A stretch of DNA of 64,000 bases, taken from assembly GCA_029779695.1 (NCBI GenBank), contig JAKPAB010000200.1:124001-188000 (forward strand). The letters run 5' to 3'. Source of the stretch: Bacillota bacterium. Lineage in GTDB: Bacteria; Bacillota; Clostridia; Lachnospirales; Lachnospiraceae. The notes below the pieces were generated by a model. It did not search any database and was not told the origin of the DNA. It was given only the letters and a program-made list of their open reading frames with translations. Below, one piece after another: positions 31,532-46,936 of this stretch. Position numbers and translations under genes: made by a program. Position 1 is the stretch's first letter. Every line of letters begins with the position of its first letter.

Positions 31532-31849
31532 TCATTCCTTGGTCTCAGATTCATCTTTCATTTCCTCATCCAGGGAAATACCATCACCATTATTCTGATT
31601 ATCGTTTTTCTCTTCATCAGGACTGGTATTAAACTCCTCCTGCATTTGTTTTTCGGTTTCTTCCTTATCAATTTTGAATGATATGTCGATCACAACTCTT
31701 ATCAGAATACCAAAAAAATAAAAAATCAAAGCTGTAACAGCAAATCGAAAAACAAATGTTGTAAATTTAACGCCTTGCATAATAGAAATCAGACAAGATA
31801 TTCCACTGGCAAGCAAGCAAATAATGATAGGTATAGGTTTTGTTTTCAT
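31532..31849 (-). CDS. Small two-helix membrane protein of the che-fliA region, unknown
   Basis: The 105-residue protein has two membrane helices (IPIIICLLASGISCLISIM and FRFAVTALIFYFFGILIRVVIDIS), then a strongly acidic disordered tail of about 45 residues (SLDEEMKDESETKE at the end). It overlaps the cheD stop by four bases and precedes fliA, so it is certainly part of the operon. I do not recognise a family. The hairpin topology would place both termini in the cytoplasm. A membrane partner for the chemotaxis or export machinery is possible, but nothing in the sequence proves it. Confidence 0.75.
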   Translation of the reverse strand: MKTKPIPIIICLLASGISCLISIMQGVKFTTFVFRFAVTALIFYFFGILIRVVIDISFKIDKEETEKQMQEEFNTSPDEEKNDNQNNGDGISLDEEMKDESETKE

Positions 31850-32334
31850 ATCTCTTTAACTGGTTTCCCTACTGATTTAATCAGGTAAACTCCGCTTTCA
31901 CTGTATAATTCCACTGTACGACCATAATTCAGTCCACAATCTTCAGCAATCAATCTAATTCCAAGTTCCCTAAGCTTATTTTTAGAAGCCTCATAATTCT
32001 GATCACCAACATTGATCGCGGAAGAAGCATTACCAGAAATTGCAAACATCTTTGCGCCTCCGGCTATTTTTGCAACTATCCTGTTCTTTGAGGCTCCAGC
32101 TTTCAACATCATATCAAGTAACTGCTCTATTCCCGTATCAGCGAACTTTGCCTTGTTAGTATTGTTCCTAATTGCTGTACTATCCGGAAGCATGATATGC
32201 GCCAACCCTGAAACTTTTGTTGTTGGATCGTAGAGTGCTATACCAATGCAAGATCCCAAACCGATTGTAGTTAGAGCGTCTGGACAAGAGCAAATATTCA
32301 GATCAGCCATTCCGACTTTTATCATCTGACCCAT
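31846..32334 (-). CDS. cheD: Chemoreceptor glutamine deamidase CheD
   Basis: CheD deamidates receptor glutamines and, with CheC, controls adaptation. The 162 residues show the catalytic Cys in TIGLGSCIGIALYD (Cys29) and the His in GLAHIMLPDS (His46), then the C-terminal GGAKMFAI and IGDQN-like (VGDQNYEA) strands. AGGAGA precedes the ATG. It follows cheC by 13 bases, its known binding partner. The acidic membrane protein gene overlaps its end. Confidence 0.96.
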   Translation of the reverse strand: MGQMIKVGMADLNICSCPDALTTIGLGSCIGIALYDPTTKVSGLAHIMLPDSTAIRNNTNKAKFADTGIEQLLDMMLKAGASKNRIVAKIAGGAKMFAISGNASSAINVGDQNYEASKNKLRELGIRLIAEDCGLNYGRTVELYSESGVYLIKSVGKPVKEI

Positions 32335-32347
32335 AATCTATCTCCTG

Positions 32348-32965
32348 CTACTCTATTGGAACGCCAAGTGATGCTAATATTTTTTCGAATGATTCCTCGT
32401 CAGGCATAAGTATAAAATAGCCATCAATCTTATTGTCACCACCGATTTCTGTCTTAATCATAAGTGCTTTATCACTTATAAGTCCAAATTGAATAGCCGG
32501 AACACTTAATATTGCAGCAGCCATATCAACCGAAACATAGGGTACTGTAGGTGAAATGGTCAAATTAGTAAGTCCTGATAATGCTGATAGATATGATCCC
32601 GCAATTATATTTCCAATTTCCTTTAATGCAGAGAGATCCATTTCATCAAAATCATTATTATAATTTACATCTCTCATCATAAGAAGATTAACCATCTTAT
32701 GCGCGGAGGCCATATCCATAAGAAACATCATGCTTCCATTGACATCTGTCTCAACACCAAGCATAATTCCCACAACAACCTGTTCTTCCGAACCAATTGC
32801 TCCGCCGATCTTTTCTACCGGCATAAGTTCGACATTCGGAACACTCATATCCATTTTCAGATTAAGCATGTTAGAAATTGCTGTAGTTGCATTACCTGCA
32901 CCTATATTTCCAATTTCCTTAAGAACATCAAGGTACATATCATTTAGCTGATCTAAATTCGCCAT
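32348..32965 (-). CDS. cheC: CheY-P phosphatase CheC
   Basis: CheC dephosphorylates CheY-P and binds CheD. The 205 residues have both phosphatase helices with Glu and Asn spaced by three: VLKEIGNIGAGNATTAI (Glu17, Asn20) and LSALKEIGNIIAGSYLSALS (Glu116, Asn119). Both sites are intact. It sits directly upstream of cheD, as in B. subtilis. Together with FliY this locus encodes two CheY-P phosphatases. Confidence 0.96.
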   Translation of the reverse strand: MANLDQLNDMYLDVLKEIGNIGAGNATTAISNMLNLKMDMSVPNVELMPVEKIGGAIGSEEQVVVGIMLGVETDVNGSMMFLMDMASAHKMVNLLMMRDVNYNNDFDEMDLSALKEIGNIIAGSYLSALSGLTNLTISPTVPYVSVDMAAAILSVPAIQFGLISDKALMIKTEIGGDNKIDGYFILMPDEESFEKILASLGVPIE

Positions 32966-32995: not shown

Positions 32996-33460
32996 TTATT
33001 TTGAAGCTTCTGTGGCAATCTTATCAATATCAAACAGCGAAATAAGGCGTGCCTCATTTTTCCCAATTCCATTAATAAAATTACTTTTGCTATCTTTTGT
33101 ATTAAAGTTTCTTTCTATTTCACTTTCTCCAAGCGAGAAAACCTCATTTACAGAATCTACTAAAATCCCGACGAATCCCTGATCCTGAAGCTTTAGTATA
33201 ATAATTCTGGTTGCGTTTGTAATCACATCTTCCTGTAAACCCATCTTTTTTCTAATGCTCATGACAGGAACAACTTCACCACGCAGATTTATTACGCCTT
33301 TATAATGTGTGGGAGCCTTTGGAACTCTTGTGATTTTCTGCATACGAACGATATTATCTACAAACGAAATATCAAGGCCATAAAACTCGTCACCAAGTGT
33401 AACGACAATGTACTGCTTTTTAACTTCGGCAGTTGCATCAAGTTCTGCAGATTTGCTCAT
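32996..33460 (-). CDS. cheW: Chemotaxis coupling protein CheW
   Basis: CheW joins CheA to receptors in the signalling array. The 154 residues show the two SH3-like subdomains with QYIVVTLGDEFYGLDISFVDNI, TRVPKAPTHYKGVINLRGEVVPVMSIRKKMG and IIILKLQDQGFVGILVDSVNEVFSL, typical CheW strands. GGGGGA precedes the start. It lies between cheA and cheC with short gaps. Confidence 0.97.
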   Translation of the reverse strand: MSKSAELDATAEVKKQYIVVTLGDEFYGLDISFVDNIVRMQKITRVPKAPTHYKGVINLRGEVVPVMSIRKKMGLQEDVITNATRIIILKLQDQGFVGILVDSVNEVFSLGESEIERNFNTKDSKSNFINGIGKNEARLISLFDIDKIATEASK

Positions 33461-33475
33461 AATATCCCCCTTTAC

Positions 33476-35605
33476 TTAGAATAACGAATTAACATCAATT
33501 ATAAGAGCTACTTCACCGTCTCCGAGAATTGTAGCACCACTGATGTACTTATTATCTTCAATTACTTTGCCAAGTGACTTAATAACAATTTCCTGTTGTC
33601 CAATCAGATTATCGACAACGACACCCACTGAGCTATCACCCTTATTAACAACAACAACTGTAATATCCTCAGGCTTATCTTCCGTATCCTGGCAATCAAG
33701 AATCGTATCCATATGTACAAGGGGAATAACTGTTCCTCTTAAATAAATAACTTCCTTGGCCTGAACATATTTGATATCTGTAACAGGAATATATTCAATG
33801 TTCTGGATAGAAGCAAGTGCGATCGCATATTTTTCATCTCTAACTTCAACCATAAGAGCCTGAATAATTGCCAAAGTAAGAGGAAGTCTTACTGTAAATG
33901 TGGAGCCTACTCCCATTTCAGAATGAACCTCTACATCACCACCAAGAGATTCAACATTAGACTTAACAACATCAAGTCCTACGCCTCTTCCTGATATATC
34001 TGTAATCTTCTTGGCCATAGAGAAACTAGGCATAAATAAGAAGTTGGCGATCTCTTTTTTGGAGAGTTTTTTGCCTTCTTCTTCAGATACTATTCCTCTT
34101 TCAATTGCCTTACGGAGAACAGAATCTGTATCAATTCCAGCACCATCATCCTTGACCTTGATGATGACATTATTGCCTTCCTGATACGCTGTAAGCCAGA
34201 TCTTACCAGTTTCAGGCTTGCCACTCATTTTTCTAGTTTTGGGATCTTCTATTCCATGATCTGCAGAGTTTCTTAGCAAATGCTGAAGAGGATCTCCGAT
34301 CTGATCAACAACTGTTCTATCAAGCTCTGTCTCCTCACCTGACATAATAAGATCCATGGGCTTGTTAAGTTTTCTAGAAAGATCTCTGATCATTCTAGGG
34401 AACTTATTAACGACACTCTCAATAGGAACCATTCTGACCTTCATAACTGATTCATGAAGACCTGTTGTGATTCTCTCTAAATATTCTATCTGCTCTGTTA
34501 GATCTGCACCACCCTCAGCCTCTGAGCTGTTTGCTCTAGCGACAAGGGTATTTTTTGCTATAATAAGCTCGCTGACCTGATTCATAAGATCATCCAGCTT
34601 ATCAATATCAACTCTTACTGTACGTGTAGCAACAGGTTTTCCCTTATTTGCTGCGGCTATAGCATTTTTAGAAGTCTTTGAAGCCTGTTCTTTACTGTTA
34701 TCTATAGTTGAAAGAATCGTCTTTGTCTTCTCCACCTTTGGATTTTCCGACTTATCCGGAGCTTCCTGAACTGCTACATTTTCATGATACATATCAAGGT
34801 TAACAGGTCCAATTACTGCAGACTTAATCTCTGATACATTTTCTATAGCCGATTTAATATCATCCTGATCACAATCAGTCTGAAGGAGAAGGCTAAACTC
34901 AGTTTCGAATTTTTCATCCTCAACATCCTGAGCTGATGGTGAATAGGCAATTATTTCACCAAATTCCTCAACTGCCTTATATACCAAAAATGCTCTAGCT
35001 GCCTTCAAAAGACATTCCTTGCTTGTGTTTACTGTTATGCCAATAACATTAGCTCCACCCTCAAGTTCGTCAATCACCTTCATCTTGTCATCATCTGAAA
35101 GAGGAAGATGTGTGTATGCTACAGCATCATTTTGTTCATCAGAACTATTTGTTTCAGATGCGGTTTCAGCCACAGTTGTTTCAACTTCTGGTGTTTTTTC
35201 ACTAACTATATCACTGCCTGTTTCCTTGGTAAGGAAATCATTTAGTTTCTTAATAGTAACTGCATTATCCTCAGAGCCCTCATCGGATGTTTCTTTTATT
35301 GTTGAAACATATCCCTCTATTGCATCAAGACAGTCAAAAAGAATATCAATAAGATCACTGTTGACCTTGACATTATCATTTCTAACTTCCTGAAAAACAT
35401 TCTCCATGTCATGGGTCAAATGCTGCATCTTCTTGAAGCCCATGGTACCAGCCATTCCTTTTAATGAGTGAGCTGCTCTAAAAATTTCATTGATAGTGTC
35501 TGCATTCTCGGGTTCTTTCTCGAGAATCATGATGTTATCACTGAGGCTCTGAATGTGCTCGTTGGACTCATCAATAAAGACATCTAGATATTGGCTAACA
35601 TCCAT
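33476..35605 (-). CDS. cheA: Chemotaxis histidine kinase CheA
   Basis: CheA phosphorylates CheY in response to receptors. The 709 residues have P1 with the phospho-His in RAAHSLKGMAGTMGF (His46), P2 (about 165-270, a CheY-binding ferredoxin-like domain), P3 dimerisation (VDIDKLDDLMNQVSELIIAKN), P4 ATPase (LRNSADHGIEDP, VKDDGAGID, ISGRGVGLDVVKS) and a P5 CheW-like end (LALIIDVNSLF-like). All kinase boxes look intact. It is two bases from cheB and 15 from cheW. CheB cannot be its normal phosphorylation target here because of the altered receiver. Confidence 0.98.
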   Translation of the reverse strand: MDVSQYLDVFIDESNEHIQSLSDNIMILEKEPENADTINEIFRAAHSLKGMAGTMGFKKMQHLTHDMENVFQEVRNDNVKVNSDLIDILFDCLDAIEGYVSTIKETSDEGSEDNAVTIKKLNDFLTKETGSDIVSEKTPEVETTVAETASETNSSDEQNDAVAYTHLPLSDDDKMKVIDELEGGANVIGITVNTSKECLLKAARAFLVYKAVEEFGEIIAYSPSAQDVEDEKFETEFSLLLQTDCDQDDIKSAIENVSEIKSAVIGPVNLDMYHENVAVQEAPDKSENPKVEKTKTILSTIDNSKEQASKTSKNAIAAANKGKPVATRTVRVDIDKLDDLMNQVSELIIAKNTLVARANSSEAEGGADLTEQIEYLERITTGLHESVMKVRMVPIESVVNKFPRMIRDLSRKLNKPMDLIMSGEETELDRTVVDQIGDPLQHLLRNSADHGIEDPKTRKMSGKPETGKIWLTAYQEGNNVIIKVKDDGAGIDTDSVLRKAIERGIVSEEEGKKLSKKEIANFLFMPSFSMAKKITDISGRGVGLDVVKSNVESLGGDVEVHSEMGVGSTFTVRLPLTLAIIQALMVEVRDEKYAIALASIQNIEYIPVTDIKYVQAKEVIYLRGTVIPLVHMDTILDCQDTEDKPEDITVVVVNKGDSSVGVVVDNLIGQQEIVIKSLGKVIEDNKYISGATILGDGEVALIIDVNSLF

Positions 35606-35607
35606 AC

Positions 35608-36726
35608 TTATACCCCCAATTCCTTTCTTATTACATCTGCTACTTTTTCAATTGGCACCGATATATCAGATAGACCACTTTGGTCAACTGACTTCGGCAT
35701 GCCATAAACTACACATGTTTCTTTACTCTGTGTAATGACTCTGATGGACTTATATTTTTTTAAGTACTTAAGTCCATCTGTACCATCACATCCCATTCCT
35801 GTTAGTACAACACAGATCAAATTATCAAAGCCTGTGTTTGCAAGTGACCTATACATAACATCTGCACATGGTCTCAGACTGTTAACAGGAGGATCATCAA
35901 ACACTCTTGCATAACTTTTTCCAAGCTTGTCTACAACCTCGAGATGCCTTCCACCTGGAGCCATATAGACTACATTAGGTAAAAGTTCTTCTCCGTCTGA
36001 AACTTCCTTGACTTTGAGATTTGCCTCTGCATTGATTCTCTCACAAAGAGAAACTGTAAATCCTTTCGGCATATGTTGCACGATCACTACAGGAACGCCC
36101 AAATTACCAGGAAGCATAGGCAAAAAATTATGAAGAGCCTGTGGTCCTCCTGTAGAAGACGCAATAGCTACTATTCTTTTCTTGCCATTTCCCTGTAGCT
36201 GGGGTATGGGCTTATCCACAGGCAAAGAATATTTATCAATAGTAATATCTTTCTTTTTTTTCGTGGATTCATCCCTAGGTCTATCAATACTTTTCTGAGT
36301 AAAATCCATTGGTTTGCCGGTCGGTCCAAGTTCCTTAAAGAGATTGTCTACTGCTTCATTTAGTTCTCTAGTGAATTTGTCATGTCCTGGTCCAAAAATA
36401 TGAAATGGTCTGGCCACAAATGCAAAATTGTCATTTTCCGGAATTGTAAGAGAAGCATCCTTGTCTTCTTGTGCTTCTGTTCCTATCAATACAATCTTGC
36501 AAGAGCTTCCCTTCTTACGTAAACGATTTAAAATCTCCATACCGTTTTTTTTAGGAAGGTACATATATATGATTAGCATATCTGGATTTATTTTTTCATA
36601 TATATCTAGAGCCTCATCGCCATCCCTGCAAGTACTGATTTCATATTTTTCTGTACCTGAACTGATTATATCACACTCTTTCTTTCTCAAGAGTGCAGAG
36701 TCATCTGCAATCAGAATCTTTTTCAT
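35608..36726 (-). CDS. cheB: CheB methylesterase with degenerate receiver domain
   Basis: CheB removes methyl groups from chemoreceptors. The C-terminal methylesterase (about 183-372) has the triad: Ser191 in IASSTGGPQAL, His218 in VQHMPKGFTV, and Asp in GMGCDGTDGLKYL. The receiver domain (1-112) keeps the acidic pair in IADDSALL (Asp8, Asp9). However, the phospho-acceptor position in NPDMLIIYMYLPKKNG is Tyr54 where Asp is required. The conserved Thr/Ser reads Gly82, followed by Thr83, and the conserved Lys reads Arg106 (VARPF). Phosphorylation by CheA is therefore not expected, so activity may be constitutive or differently controlled. The frame is intact and the gene sits between the PilZ gene and cheA. 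Confidence 0.93.
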   Translation of the reverse strand: MKKILIADDSALLRKKECDIISSGTEKYEISTCRDGDEALDIYEKINPDMLIIYMYLPKKNGMEILNRLRKKGSSCKIVLIGTEAQEDKDASLTIPENDNFAFVARPFHIFGPGHDKFTRELNEAVDNLFKELGPTGKPMDFTQKSIDRPRDESTKKKKDITIDKYSLPVDKPIPQLQGNGKKRIVAIASSTGGPQALHNFLPMLPGNLGVPVVIVQHMPKGFTVSLCERINAEANLKVKEVSDGEELLPNVVYMAPGGRHLEVVDKLGKSYARVFDDPPVNSLRPCADVMYRSLANTGFDNLICVVLTGMGCDGTDGLKYLKKYKSIRVITQSKETCVVYGMPKSVDQSGLSDISVPIEKVADVIRKELGV

Positions 36727-37469
36727 AGGCCTTGCTCTCTTCTCCGTCTACTTCTTTCAACTTCAAAAATATATCTGATAATTACTTCCTGGCTCGCTCC
36801 ATCTGTATATTGAAATTGTATACGGTGTGAATATTTATTTGTATCCTCAATATGATCACTATGAATCGGTTTTCCTATAACTTCTATAATTCTGCTTCCA
36901 CTTTTCATATACAATTCAAATCTAAATAATACATATGAAAAACCTTCGATATTAAGTGAAGTGGTATACTTCATACCGCCTCCGCTAATATCTATTATAG
37001 TTCCATTTCCGCTTAAAACGTTTTCTCCTCTTTCTTCCTTTAGCGCTATCTCCCGTTTTGCCTCATTTATCGTCGTAAAATTGCCTGCTTGATCAGATAA
37101 AACTGTAAATTCTATTGGTATCATACAATCTATTCTAAAGAATTCTCTTCTCTGATATTTACTGATTGATCCCAATACCTCAATTTCTGTGAGATAAAAA
37201 TTTTCTTTTTTATATCGTCTCACTACCTGTCCATCTGCATGTAACAGTCCCTGAATTGTAGTAAAGATGAGATTATATTTTCCGCCATCCAGTAAAGGAA
37301 TAATAATTGTTTCCTCTTGTGGTGTCATGATCTCTATATGATTATTATCCAAAATGCTGTATAGCGAACTCTTATATGAATGTTTGAAACCTCTACTATT
37401 ACCGTCTGTATCTATTTGGGGTTCAATAATATCAAGTTTACATCCAGGAAGTATGTCATCAAGTTCCAT
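36723..37469 (-). CDS. PilZ-domain c-di-GMP receptor, YcgR/DgrA type flagellar brake
   Basis: YcgR-type proteins bind c-di-GMP and slow or stop the flagellar motor. The 248 residues have an N-terminal YcgR-like beta domain (about 1-100) and a PilZ domain from about 110. The PilZ domain has both nucleotide motifs: RxxxR in QRREFFRID and DxSxxG in IIDISGGGMKY. It ends in a basic tail (FEVERSRRRREQG). AGGAG precedes the ATG and its end overlaps cheB by four bases. Its place in the operon ties motility to c-di-GMP. Binding is predicted, not shown. Confidence 0.88.
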   Translation of the reverse strand: MELDDILPGCKLDIIEPQIDTDGNSRGFKHSYKSSLYSILDNNHIEIMTPQEETIIIPLLDGGKYNLIFTTIQGLLHADGQVVRRYKKENFYLTEIEVLGSISKYQRREFFRIDCMIPIEFTVLSDQAGNFTTINEAKREIALKEERGENVLSGNGTIIDISGGGMKYTTSLNIEGFSYVLFRFELYMKSGSRIIEVIGKPIHSDHIEDTNKYSHRIQFQYTDGASQEVIIRYIFEVERSRRRREQGL

Positions 37470-45346: not shown

Positions 45347-45709
45347 TTAGCCGATTACTTTCTTAACTGCCTCGAGAACACGTTCAGCCTGAAAAGGTTT
45401 AACAATAAAGTCCTTAGCGCCTGACTGAATAGCATCAATAACCATTGCCTGCTGGCCCATGGCTGAGCACATTATAATAGATGCATTGGGATCATTTGCA
45501 CGGATTCCCTTAAGCGCCTGAATACCATCCATCTCAGGCATTGTGATGTCCATCAGAACAAGATCCGGCTTGCACTCAGTATAAACATCAATAGCTTTTT
45601 TGCCATTTTCAGCCTCTCCAACAATGTTGTAGCCATTTTTTGTAAGGATATCTTTAATCATCATTCTCATAAATGCTGCGTCATCGACAATCATAATATT
45701 CTTTGCCAT
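45347..45709 (-). CDS. cheY: Chemotaxis response regulator CheY
   Basis: CheY-P binds the motor switch (FliM/FliY). The 120 residues form one receiver domain with all switch residues: MIVDDAAFMR (acid pair), PDLVLMDITMPEMDG (phospho-Asp), IIMCSAMGQ (Ser) and DFIVKPF (Lys). The contrast with the altered receiver of CheB in the same locus is clear. It sits between fliY and fliO, as in B. subtilis. Confidence 0.97.
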   Translation of the reverse strand: MAKNIMIVDDAAFMRMMIKDILTKNGYNIVGEAENGKKAIDVYTECKPDLVLMDITMPEMDGIQALKGIRANDPNASIIMCSAMGQQAMVIDAIQSGAKDFIVKPFQAERVLEAVKKVIG

Positions 45710-45724: not shown

Positions 45725-46936
45725 TCAATCATTCAATATTTCAGTTATACGAATACCGAAAGACTCTTCAATTACAACTACTTCGCCTCTTGCAACATAC
45801 TTGCCATTAACCAATACATCAATAGGTTCACCAGCGATCTTGTTTAATTCTATTATAGTACCGGGGGTAAAATCAAGTATCTCCTGAATAGATTTATGAG
45901 TTCTTCCCAATTCTACCGTAACTTCTAGCGGTACATCCTTAATAAGATCTATGTTTTCCTGCAGCGGTATCATCGGGTTGCCACTCGTAAATGATGTAAA
46001 CTGTGCGGGTTGAACATCCACAGGCGGAACCTGCATCATTGGTTGCTGTGTCATTTGTTGTTGCATCATTGGCTGTTGCATCATCTGCTGCTGCATCATC
46101 TGTGGCTGTGTCTGCATCTGTTGCGATGGAGCCTGTTGCAGCTGCTGTTGATTTTGAGTTTCCAAAGACCCTATCTGCATTTCGCTCTGTGGGACTTGCC
46201 CTACCGAGCTCGGTGCATCAGCATCACTTGCAGAAGCATCTGAATCTGCTTCCATATTGTTCAGCACATCATTACACATCTCATGTACTAAGCTGACAGG
46301 ATACAACTGCATCATCTTGCTGTCAACCAAATCACCGATTTGTAAATGAAATTCTATTTTTACAAAAATGCCTGATAGGAAGTCATCTATTACTCCGCCT
46401 TCTTTGGCATTGGCAAGGTCAATAAGATTAGATGTGGGCGGGCTTATATCTATCACCTTATTCAGCATCGAAGAAAGCGAGGTTGCTGATGATCCCATCA
46501 TCTGGTTCATAGCTTCGCTGATTGCCGAAAGATGAATCTCTCCCAGCTCACCAGTAACATTTGTCCCGTCTCCACCCATCATTAGGTCTGTTATGACCTT
46601 AACATCTTGTTCCTTTAAAACTAGTTCATTACTTCCGTTTAATCCCTTAGTAAATATTATTTTAACAAGAACACAAGGTTTATCATATTCATCAATTATT
46701 TGCTGCCAAGTTGCCGATGAAACTACCGGCGTAGAAATCTCTACCTTTTTATTAACCAGTGAAAAAAGTGCTGTGGCCGCTGTACCCATGCATATATTTG
46801 CGACCTCACCTATAGTATCAGATTCCTGCGTAGAAAGATGATCCGTGGAAGTCTCTGAAGAATCTCCTCCGCCGGAGGAAGCTCCTCCGTTAAGAAGGGC
46901 ATCAATCTCTTCTTGTGATAAAGATCCGTCACTCAT
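45725..46936 (-). CDS. fliY: Motor switch phosphatase FliY (FliN fusion)
   Basis: FliY is a C-ring protein that dephosphorylates CheY-P. The 403 residues have an N-terminal CheY-P binding peptide (LSQEEIDALL) and a CheC-like domain with two active helices (IGEVANICMG, Glu44/Asn47; LSAISEAMNQMMG, Glu141/Asn144). A very Met/Gln-rich linker spans about 262-302. A C-terminal SpoA/FliN domain (VPLEVTVELGRTHKSIQEILDFTPGTIIELNKIAGEPIDVLVNG) ends the protein. It overlaps fliM by eight bases. The function is clear; the linker composition is unusual. Confidence 0.95.
   Translation of the reverse strand: MSDGSLSQEEIDALLNGGASSGGGDSSETSTDHLSTQESDTIGEVANICMGTAATALFSLVNKKVEISTPVVSSATWQQIIDEYDKPCVLVKIIFTKGLNGSNELVLKEQDVKVITDLMMGGDGTNVTGELGEIHLSAISEAMNQMMGSSATSLSSMLNKVIDISPPTSNLIDLANAKEGGVIDDFLSGIFVKIEFHLQIGDLVDSKMMQLYPVSLVHEMCNDVLNNMEADSDASASDADAPSSVGQVPQSEMQIGSLETQNQQQLQQAPSQQMQTQPQMMQQQMMQQPMMQQQMTQQPMMQVPPVDVQPAQFTSFTSGNPMIPLQENIDLIKDVPLEVTVELGRTHKSIQEILDFTPGTIIELNKIAGEPIDVLVNGKYVARGEVVVIEESFGIRITEILND

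Follow-up and report, generated by a model that had tools for sequence, protein, structure and literature searches.

A chemotaxis methylesterase CheB with an aspartate-less pseudo-receiver in one branch of gut/rumen Lachnospiraceae

Phosphorylation of CheB is among the standard negative feedback loops of bacterial chemotaxis. The window considered here, a stretch of 64,000 nucleotides from a Bacillota bacterium of the Lachnospiraceae, encodes on its minus strand a CheB of 372 residues (ORF translation) that has a tyrosine where the receiver domain should carry its phospho-acceptor aspartate, and raises the question of how this enzyme may be controlled and how its pathway may still receive feedback from the kinase CheA. 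The gene lies in the order flhG-ycgR-cheB-cheA-cheW-cheC-cheD, which is common to relatives, and the relevant features are as follows.

31846..32334, minus strand: cheD (receptor deamidase family)
32348..32965, minus strand: cheC (CheY-P phosphatase family)
32996..33460, minus strand: cheW
33476..35605, minus strand: cheA with P1 (phospho-His46), P2, P3, P4 and P5
35608..36726, minus strand: cheB, with pseudo-receiver (aa 1-132), disordered linker (about 134-180) and methylesterase (about 182-372); based on the ORF, Pfam PF00072 and PF01339, an AF2 model and matches to CheB 1a2o and 6ymz
36367..36726, minus strand: receiver domain, residues 1-120
36565..36567, minus strand: codon 54, TAT (Tyr), phospho-Asp position
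36481..36483, minus strand: codon 82, GGA (Gly), conserved Thr/Ser position
36463..36468, minus strand: codons 87-88, Glu-Asp, atypical-clade signature
36409..36411, minus strand: codon 106, AGA (Arg), conserved Lys position
36400..36411, minus strand: codons 106-109, R-P-F-H, after beta5; clade signature R-P-[FY]-[RH]
36723..37469, minus strand: gene for a YcgR-like PilZ protein, overlapping the cheB start by 4 bases
45347..45709, minus strand: cheY with a complete phosphorylation site (DD, D, S, K), in part a sequence reading

The window protein and its receiver

Both parts of the protein are recognised by Pfam, Response_reg (PF00072) at residues 4-89 with 53.5 bits and CheB_methylest (PF01339) at residues 186-366 with 193 bits against a cut-off of 24. 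In a HMMER alignment to Salmonella CheB (1A2O), PDMLIIY of the window protein pairs with PDVLTLD, which places Tyr54 at the phospho-Asp position as the sequence-only reading had proposed; the translation and the CheB alignment likewise agree with its assignment of Gly82 to the conserved Thr/Ser position and of Arg106 to the Lys position. Tyr54, Gly82 and Arg106 replace Asp, Ser and Lys, Asp8 and Asp9 are present, and the canonical receiver quintet (D-D, D, T/S, K) is therefore incomplete. What the protein possesses is a pseudo-receiver, namely a receiver fold with Tyr54 instead of the phospho-Asp, the fold being supported by the PF00072 score, by PDB structures of receivers that match it and by an AF2 model. 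In this model (mean pLDDT 85) the receiver fold is preserved and residues 134-180 are disordered, and at a pTM of 0.55 the relative placement of the two domains is not reliable. The closest PDB matches are the full-length CheBs 6YMZ and 1A2O and, for the esterase, 3SFT/1CHD.

The methylesterase triad had also been described as intact, together with Asp8/Asp9, and the alignment of 99 CheBs bears this out: Ser191, His218, Asp314 and Met311 are invariant in 99/99. Given a methylesterase domain with this Ser/His/Asp triad, and a neighbourhood of chemotaxis genes, the window protein is, judging from its sequence, a true CheB methylesterase with an aspartate-less pseudo-receiver. Its score of 278.8 bits with the NCBIfam CheB subfamily model NF001965 falls below the cut-off of 293, which is an annotation threshold and no defining property of CheB; the model is passed by the relatives L066 (307.9) and L086 (317.1) and by the canonical L085 (378.3), and the shortfall is plausibly located in the receiver and linker. 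TAL-effector matches in the alignment search had no passing stretch and were rejected as spurious.

In domain order, fold, catalytic triad and place in the pathway the window CheB is like the canonical CheBs of Salmonella (1A2O) and T. maritima (3T8Y/3SFT). It differs from them in that phospho-Asp, Thr/Ser and Lys are all replaced, which blocks the CheA route at the usual site. The earlier view that feedback through CheA-P seems impossible is right in so far as Asp can not be phosphorylated at the usual position, which Tyr54 occupies.

Spread and inheritance of the aspartate loss

The same three codons (TAT, GGA and AGA) are found in the 92% identical CheB of the nearest relative, known from an independently assembled Lachnospiraceae MAG (L061), and the atypical clade includes the cultured isolates Lachnospiraceae bacterium AC2012 (E/T/R), XBD2001 (N/C/R) and C10 (N/S/R). 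A private mutation or assembly error is ruled out by these codons and isolate genomes, in accordance with the earlier argument against a sequencing error.

Our alignment of 99 Lachnospiraceae CheBs consists of 36 clade members, including the window, and a close outgroup of 63. All 63 outgroup CheBs have D-S-K, while 32 of the 36 clade members have another residue at the Asp position, a pattern which on these counts exceeds chance. Site 54 is occupied by Asn (24), Glu (6), Tyr (2) or Asp (4), and site 106 by Arg (31), Lys (2), Met (2) or Val (1). Whether the replacements are conserved in relatives had been a check suggested for the window protein, and the answer is divided: the loss of Asp is clade-wide, but Tyr54 is local, being seen in two genomes (the window and L061), with Asn the commonest residue and Glu the next. 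Glu and Asn also take the place of the Asp most often in the aspartate-less receivers described previously (PMC4395418, PMC12632262), which likewise have a receiver fold without the phospho-Asp and among which Tyr, as in the window CheB, is rare. However, the window domain is unlike these in being part of an enzyme of chemotactic adaptation, with the gene for the kinase immediately next to its own. A text search found CheB absent from the main text of both papers, and no pseudo-receiver CheB was found in the literature within a search limited to open-access papers. The known pseudo-receiver proteins, for which the mode of activation has been called a mystery (PMC12632262), are hereby joined by an enzyme of known reaction.

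The 36 CheBs form a single clade in the CheB tree (support 100/100). The split between clade and outgroup is recovered by a tree of the methylesterase domain only (support 100/99) and by the CheA tree (29 vs 46, support 0.81); it is therefore not a product of receiver convergence, an artefact which these two trees rule out, and looks vertically inherited. Horizontal spread of the atypical CheB is not suggested, since the split in the CheA tree is identical. The aspartate-less CheB receiver is, as far as trees and alignments indicate, a property of one branch of gut/rumen Lachnospiraceae, within which the tree calls for six or more switches between D, N, E and Y at site 54.

Two motifs are near-fixed and specific for the clade. 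One, E87-D88, is found in 36/41 atypical-clade CheBs vs 3/172 canonical ones, and the other is R106-P107-[FY]108-[RH]109. At the base of the clade (support 98/76), L143 (G161) still has D-S-K and combines E-D with K-P-I-R, suggesting that the loop changed first, then Lys and then Asp, although base support for this order is moderate.

A few members of the clade carry Asp. The congeners G007 and G008 have Asp54 together with Gly and Arg; relatives with Asp had been named by the sequence-only reading as a sign of private mutation or assembly error, and such relatives do exist, but the replacement in the window is not private. Asp was retained or regained in a few clade members bearing Arg or Met for Lys. 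By our count, in a wider sample composed of CheBs from the 150 best-matching genomes of an even Lachnospiraceae sample, 13 have another residue for Asp, two have Asp without Lys (R in G007 and M in G147), four are without a receiver and all others have Asp, Ser/Thr and Lys. Independently of the main clade, L166 (G045) shows an Asp-to-Asn change with Ser and Lys kept (N-S-K). L202 (G091; N/C/R) and L238 (G390; N/C/H) have the most strongly eroded receivers within the clade, with indels in the beta4-alpha4 loop and around the site of the lost Asp.

It seems unlikely that these CheBs receive a phosphate in vivo on some other residue, or that those bearing Asn become phosphorylated once the Asn has been deamidated to Asp. 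Asp8 and Asp9 are mostly retained in the clade (34/36 and 32/36), Asp54 is kept in four members, and deamidation of an Asn of this kind is on record for a receiver in work cited in PMC4395418. However, Tyr54 is incapable of deamidation to Asp, the Thr/Ser and Lys are also gone from the window CheB, and the Asp-bearing clade members are likewise without Lys.

Constraint on the receiver and its loss

Receiver dN/dS is about 0.07 between the window and L061, and 0.03-0.18 across close pairs within the clade. At matched esterase identity (0.6-0.7), the mean receiver identity is 0.44 in the clade vs 0.67 in canonical CheBs; esterase identity is equal in both groups (0.61), while in the clade the loops of the phosphorylation site show about half the conservation. 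By these measures the clade receiver evolves faster than its canonical relatives, yet under purifying selection. Conservation drops most in beta3 and alpha3, with the loop between them, and in the beta4-alpha4 loop, and only slightly in alpha1, where A11, L12, R14, C18, D19 and I20 are invariant within the clade.

In four genomes the receiver has been lost completely, and CheB is the methylesterase domain alone (L148 in G260, L149 in G272, L150 in G198 and L151 in G196). These genes are found at the usual ycgR-cheB-cheA position of the flagellar/chemotaxis operon, and the locus has no receiver remnant. L148 falls within the atypical clade on a long branch, while L149/L150 and L151 are placed elsewhere in the tree, indicating at least three independent receiver losses. 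CheB of Campylobacter jejuni has no receiver domain either. Such enzymes are freed from phospho-control, as the window CheB appears to be, but the window protein retains a constrained receiver that is predicted to fold.

The faster divergence and the four complete losses could be read as a receiver decaying under relaxed selection towards deletion. We regard such decay, or an assembly error in its place, as very improbable, because dN/dS is low in close clade pairs, the fold is predicted intact by AF2, isolate genomes belong to the clade and the same codons recur in the independent assembly. The low dN/dS and the intact esterase disfavour decay of the gene as a whole, as the sequence-only reading had maintained.

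A receiver that is kept, constrained and furnished with new motifs of its own probably has some further role. One possibility, the chief alternative to the reading favoured below but in our view less than probable, is that the pseudo-receiver is a switch for a non-phospho input, so that a partner (CheD, CheC, CheV or CheA P2 are candidates) or a small ligand would set methylesterase activity through a contact surface of E87-D88, R106 and [FY]108-[RH]109. The two clade-specific motifs and the purifying selection are consistent with it, as are the conservation of alpha1 close to that of canonical CheB and the presence of E-D already in the basal CheB that retains D-S-K. On the other hand, the whole receiver has been lost in related CheBs, including L148 inside the clade, and the motifs may be structural substitutes. 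Similarly doubtful is a lineage-wide rewiring, by which the CheB receiver would have ceased to be a phospho-switch of CheA and become a domain gated in another way (E87-D88, R-P-[FY]-[RH]), freeing Lys and then the phospho-Asp for repeated loss.

Adaptation and kinase feedback in the lineage

The phosphorylation site of CheV (E-D, D, S, K) is complete in 20/20 genomes, 16 of them with an atypical CheB, and that of CheY in the window and five congeners (6 genomes). Moreover, the phospho-His (P1) and P2 of CheA are preserved as well as in canonical relatives. Going by these CheV, CheY and CheA sites, phospho-signalling is intact and the change is confined to the CheB branch; the canonical CheV and CheY rule out a general loss of phospho-signalling, and the preserved P2 rules out its loss as the cause. 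CheR is present in all but one genome examined, CheB is usually single, and the genes for CheC and CheD follow that for CheA. CheB and CheR each occur once in the window genome, which also has 16 MCP matches, and compensation there by a second canonical CheB is ruled out. Some relatives (G001, G074, G260, G379 and G196) do have a second CheB.

The reading that we favour, with a probability of about 0.58, is that CheB in this lineage works without CheA phosphorylation as a fixed-rate methylesterase, kinase feedback being carried by CheV and CheC/CheD/CheY-P. CheA would be unable to switch on CheB through the usual Asp, and receptors would be demethylated at an unvarying basal rate, which the fixed receiver state and co-expression with cheA would determine. 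Adaptation would persist because demethylation depends on the state of the receptors, while kinase-dependent feedback would be supplied by CheV, with its intact phospho-receiver, and by CheC/CheD with CheY-P. The earlier suggestion that adaptation may rest on CheC/CheD/FliY is incomplete in this respect, as a CheV with a complete phosphorylation site is present and is a likely carrier of kinase feedback. We infer from sequence data that phosphorylation is absent in the cell, that the rate is fixed and that CheV and CheC/CheD share the work with CheB. A fixed rate is supported by the four genomes, one of them in the clade, that dispense with the receiver entirely at the same operon position. 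Against it count the retained, constrained receiver, which probably does more than sit still, and the Asp54 kept in G007 and G008.

In B. subtilis, CheC, CheD and CheV are further adaptation components, and a modelling study considered CheB phosphorylation an implausible source of selective methylation (PMC340952). By analogy, CheB phosphorylation may be dispensable in the Lachnospiraceae lineage, which has this richer set of CheC, CheD and CheV. The E. coli variants CheB-D56E and receiver-less CheBc have no phosphorylation feedback (PMC5809149), as seems true of the clade CheBs, but do have catalytic activity, which is predicted for the clade CheBs as well. The capacity for precise adaptation was ascribed to all topologies compared, these two included, but cells with either variant differed more from one another and were severely impaired in migrating through soft agar (PMC5809149). 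Since chemotactic spreading is impaired in E. coli without CheB phosphorylation, a compensating mechanism would presumably be needed in the clade. The E. coli variants are engineered and poor spreaders, whereas the clade state arose in nature, has passed down through many species and coexists with CheV, CheC and CheD.

The loss of the CheB Asp beside intact receivers elsewhere in the pathway suggests that a textbook feedback loop has been dropped or replaced in nature. A lineage that discards CheB phosphorylation yet retains CheR, CheB, CheV, CheC and CheD would represent a natural experiment on the purpose of the loop and on its substitutes, and the cultured isolates in the clade make the question testable.

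Two further observations concern the genes of this pathway. Adjoining cheY, positions 45725-46936 of the window encode a protein resembling FliY, which combines a CheC-like phosphatase motif with a FliN-type C-terminus (a sequence reading), a further putative control point for CheY-P. In the genus-mates G003, G004 and G005 (loci L008-L012, L141 and L142), which have no full-length flagellar-type CheB, CheB is found beside CheR, or open frames of ~1250 residues match both CheB and CheR.
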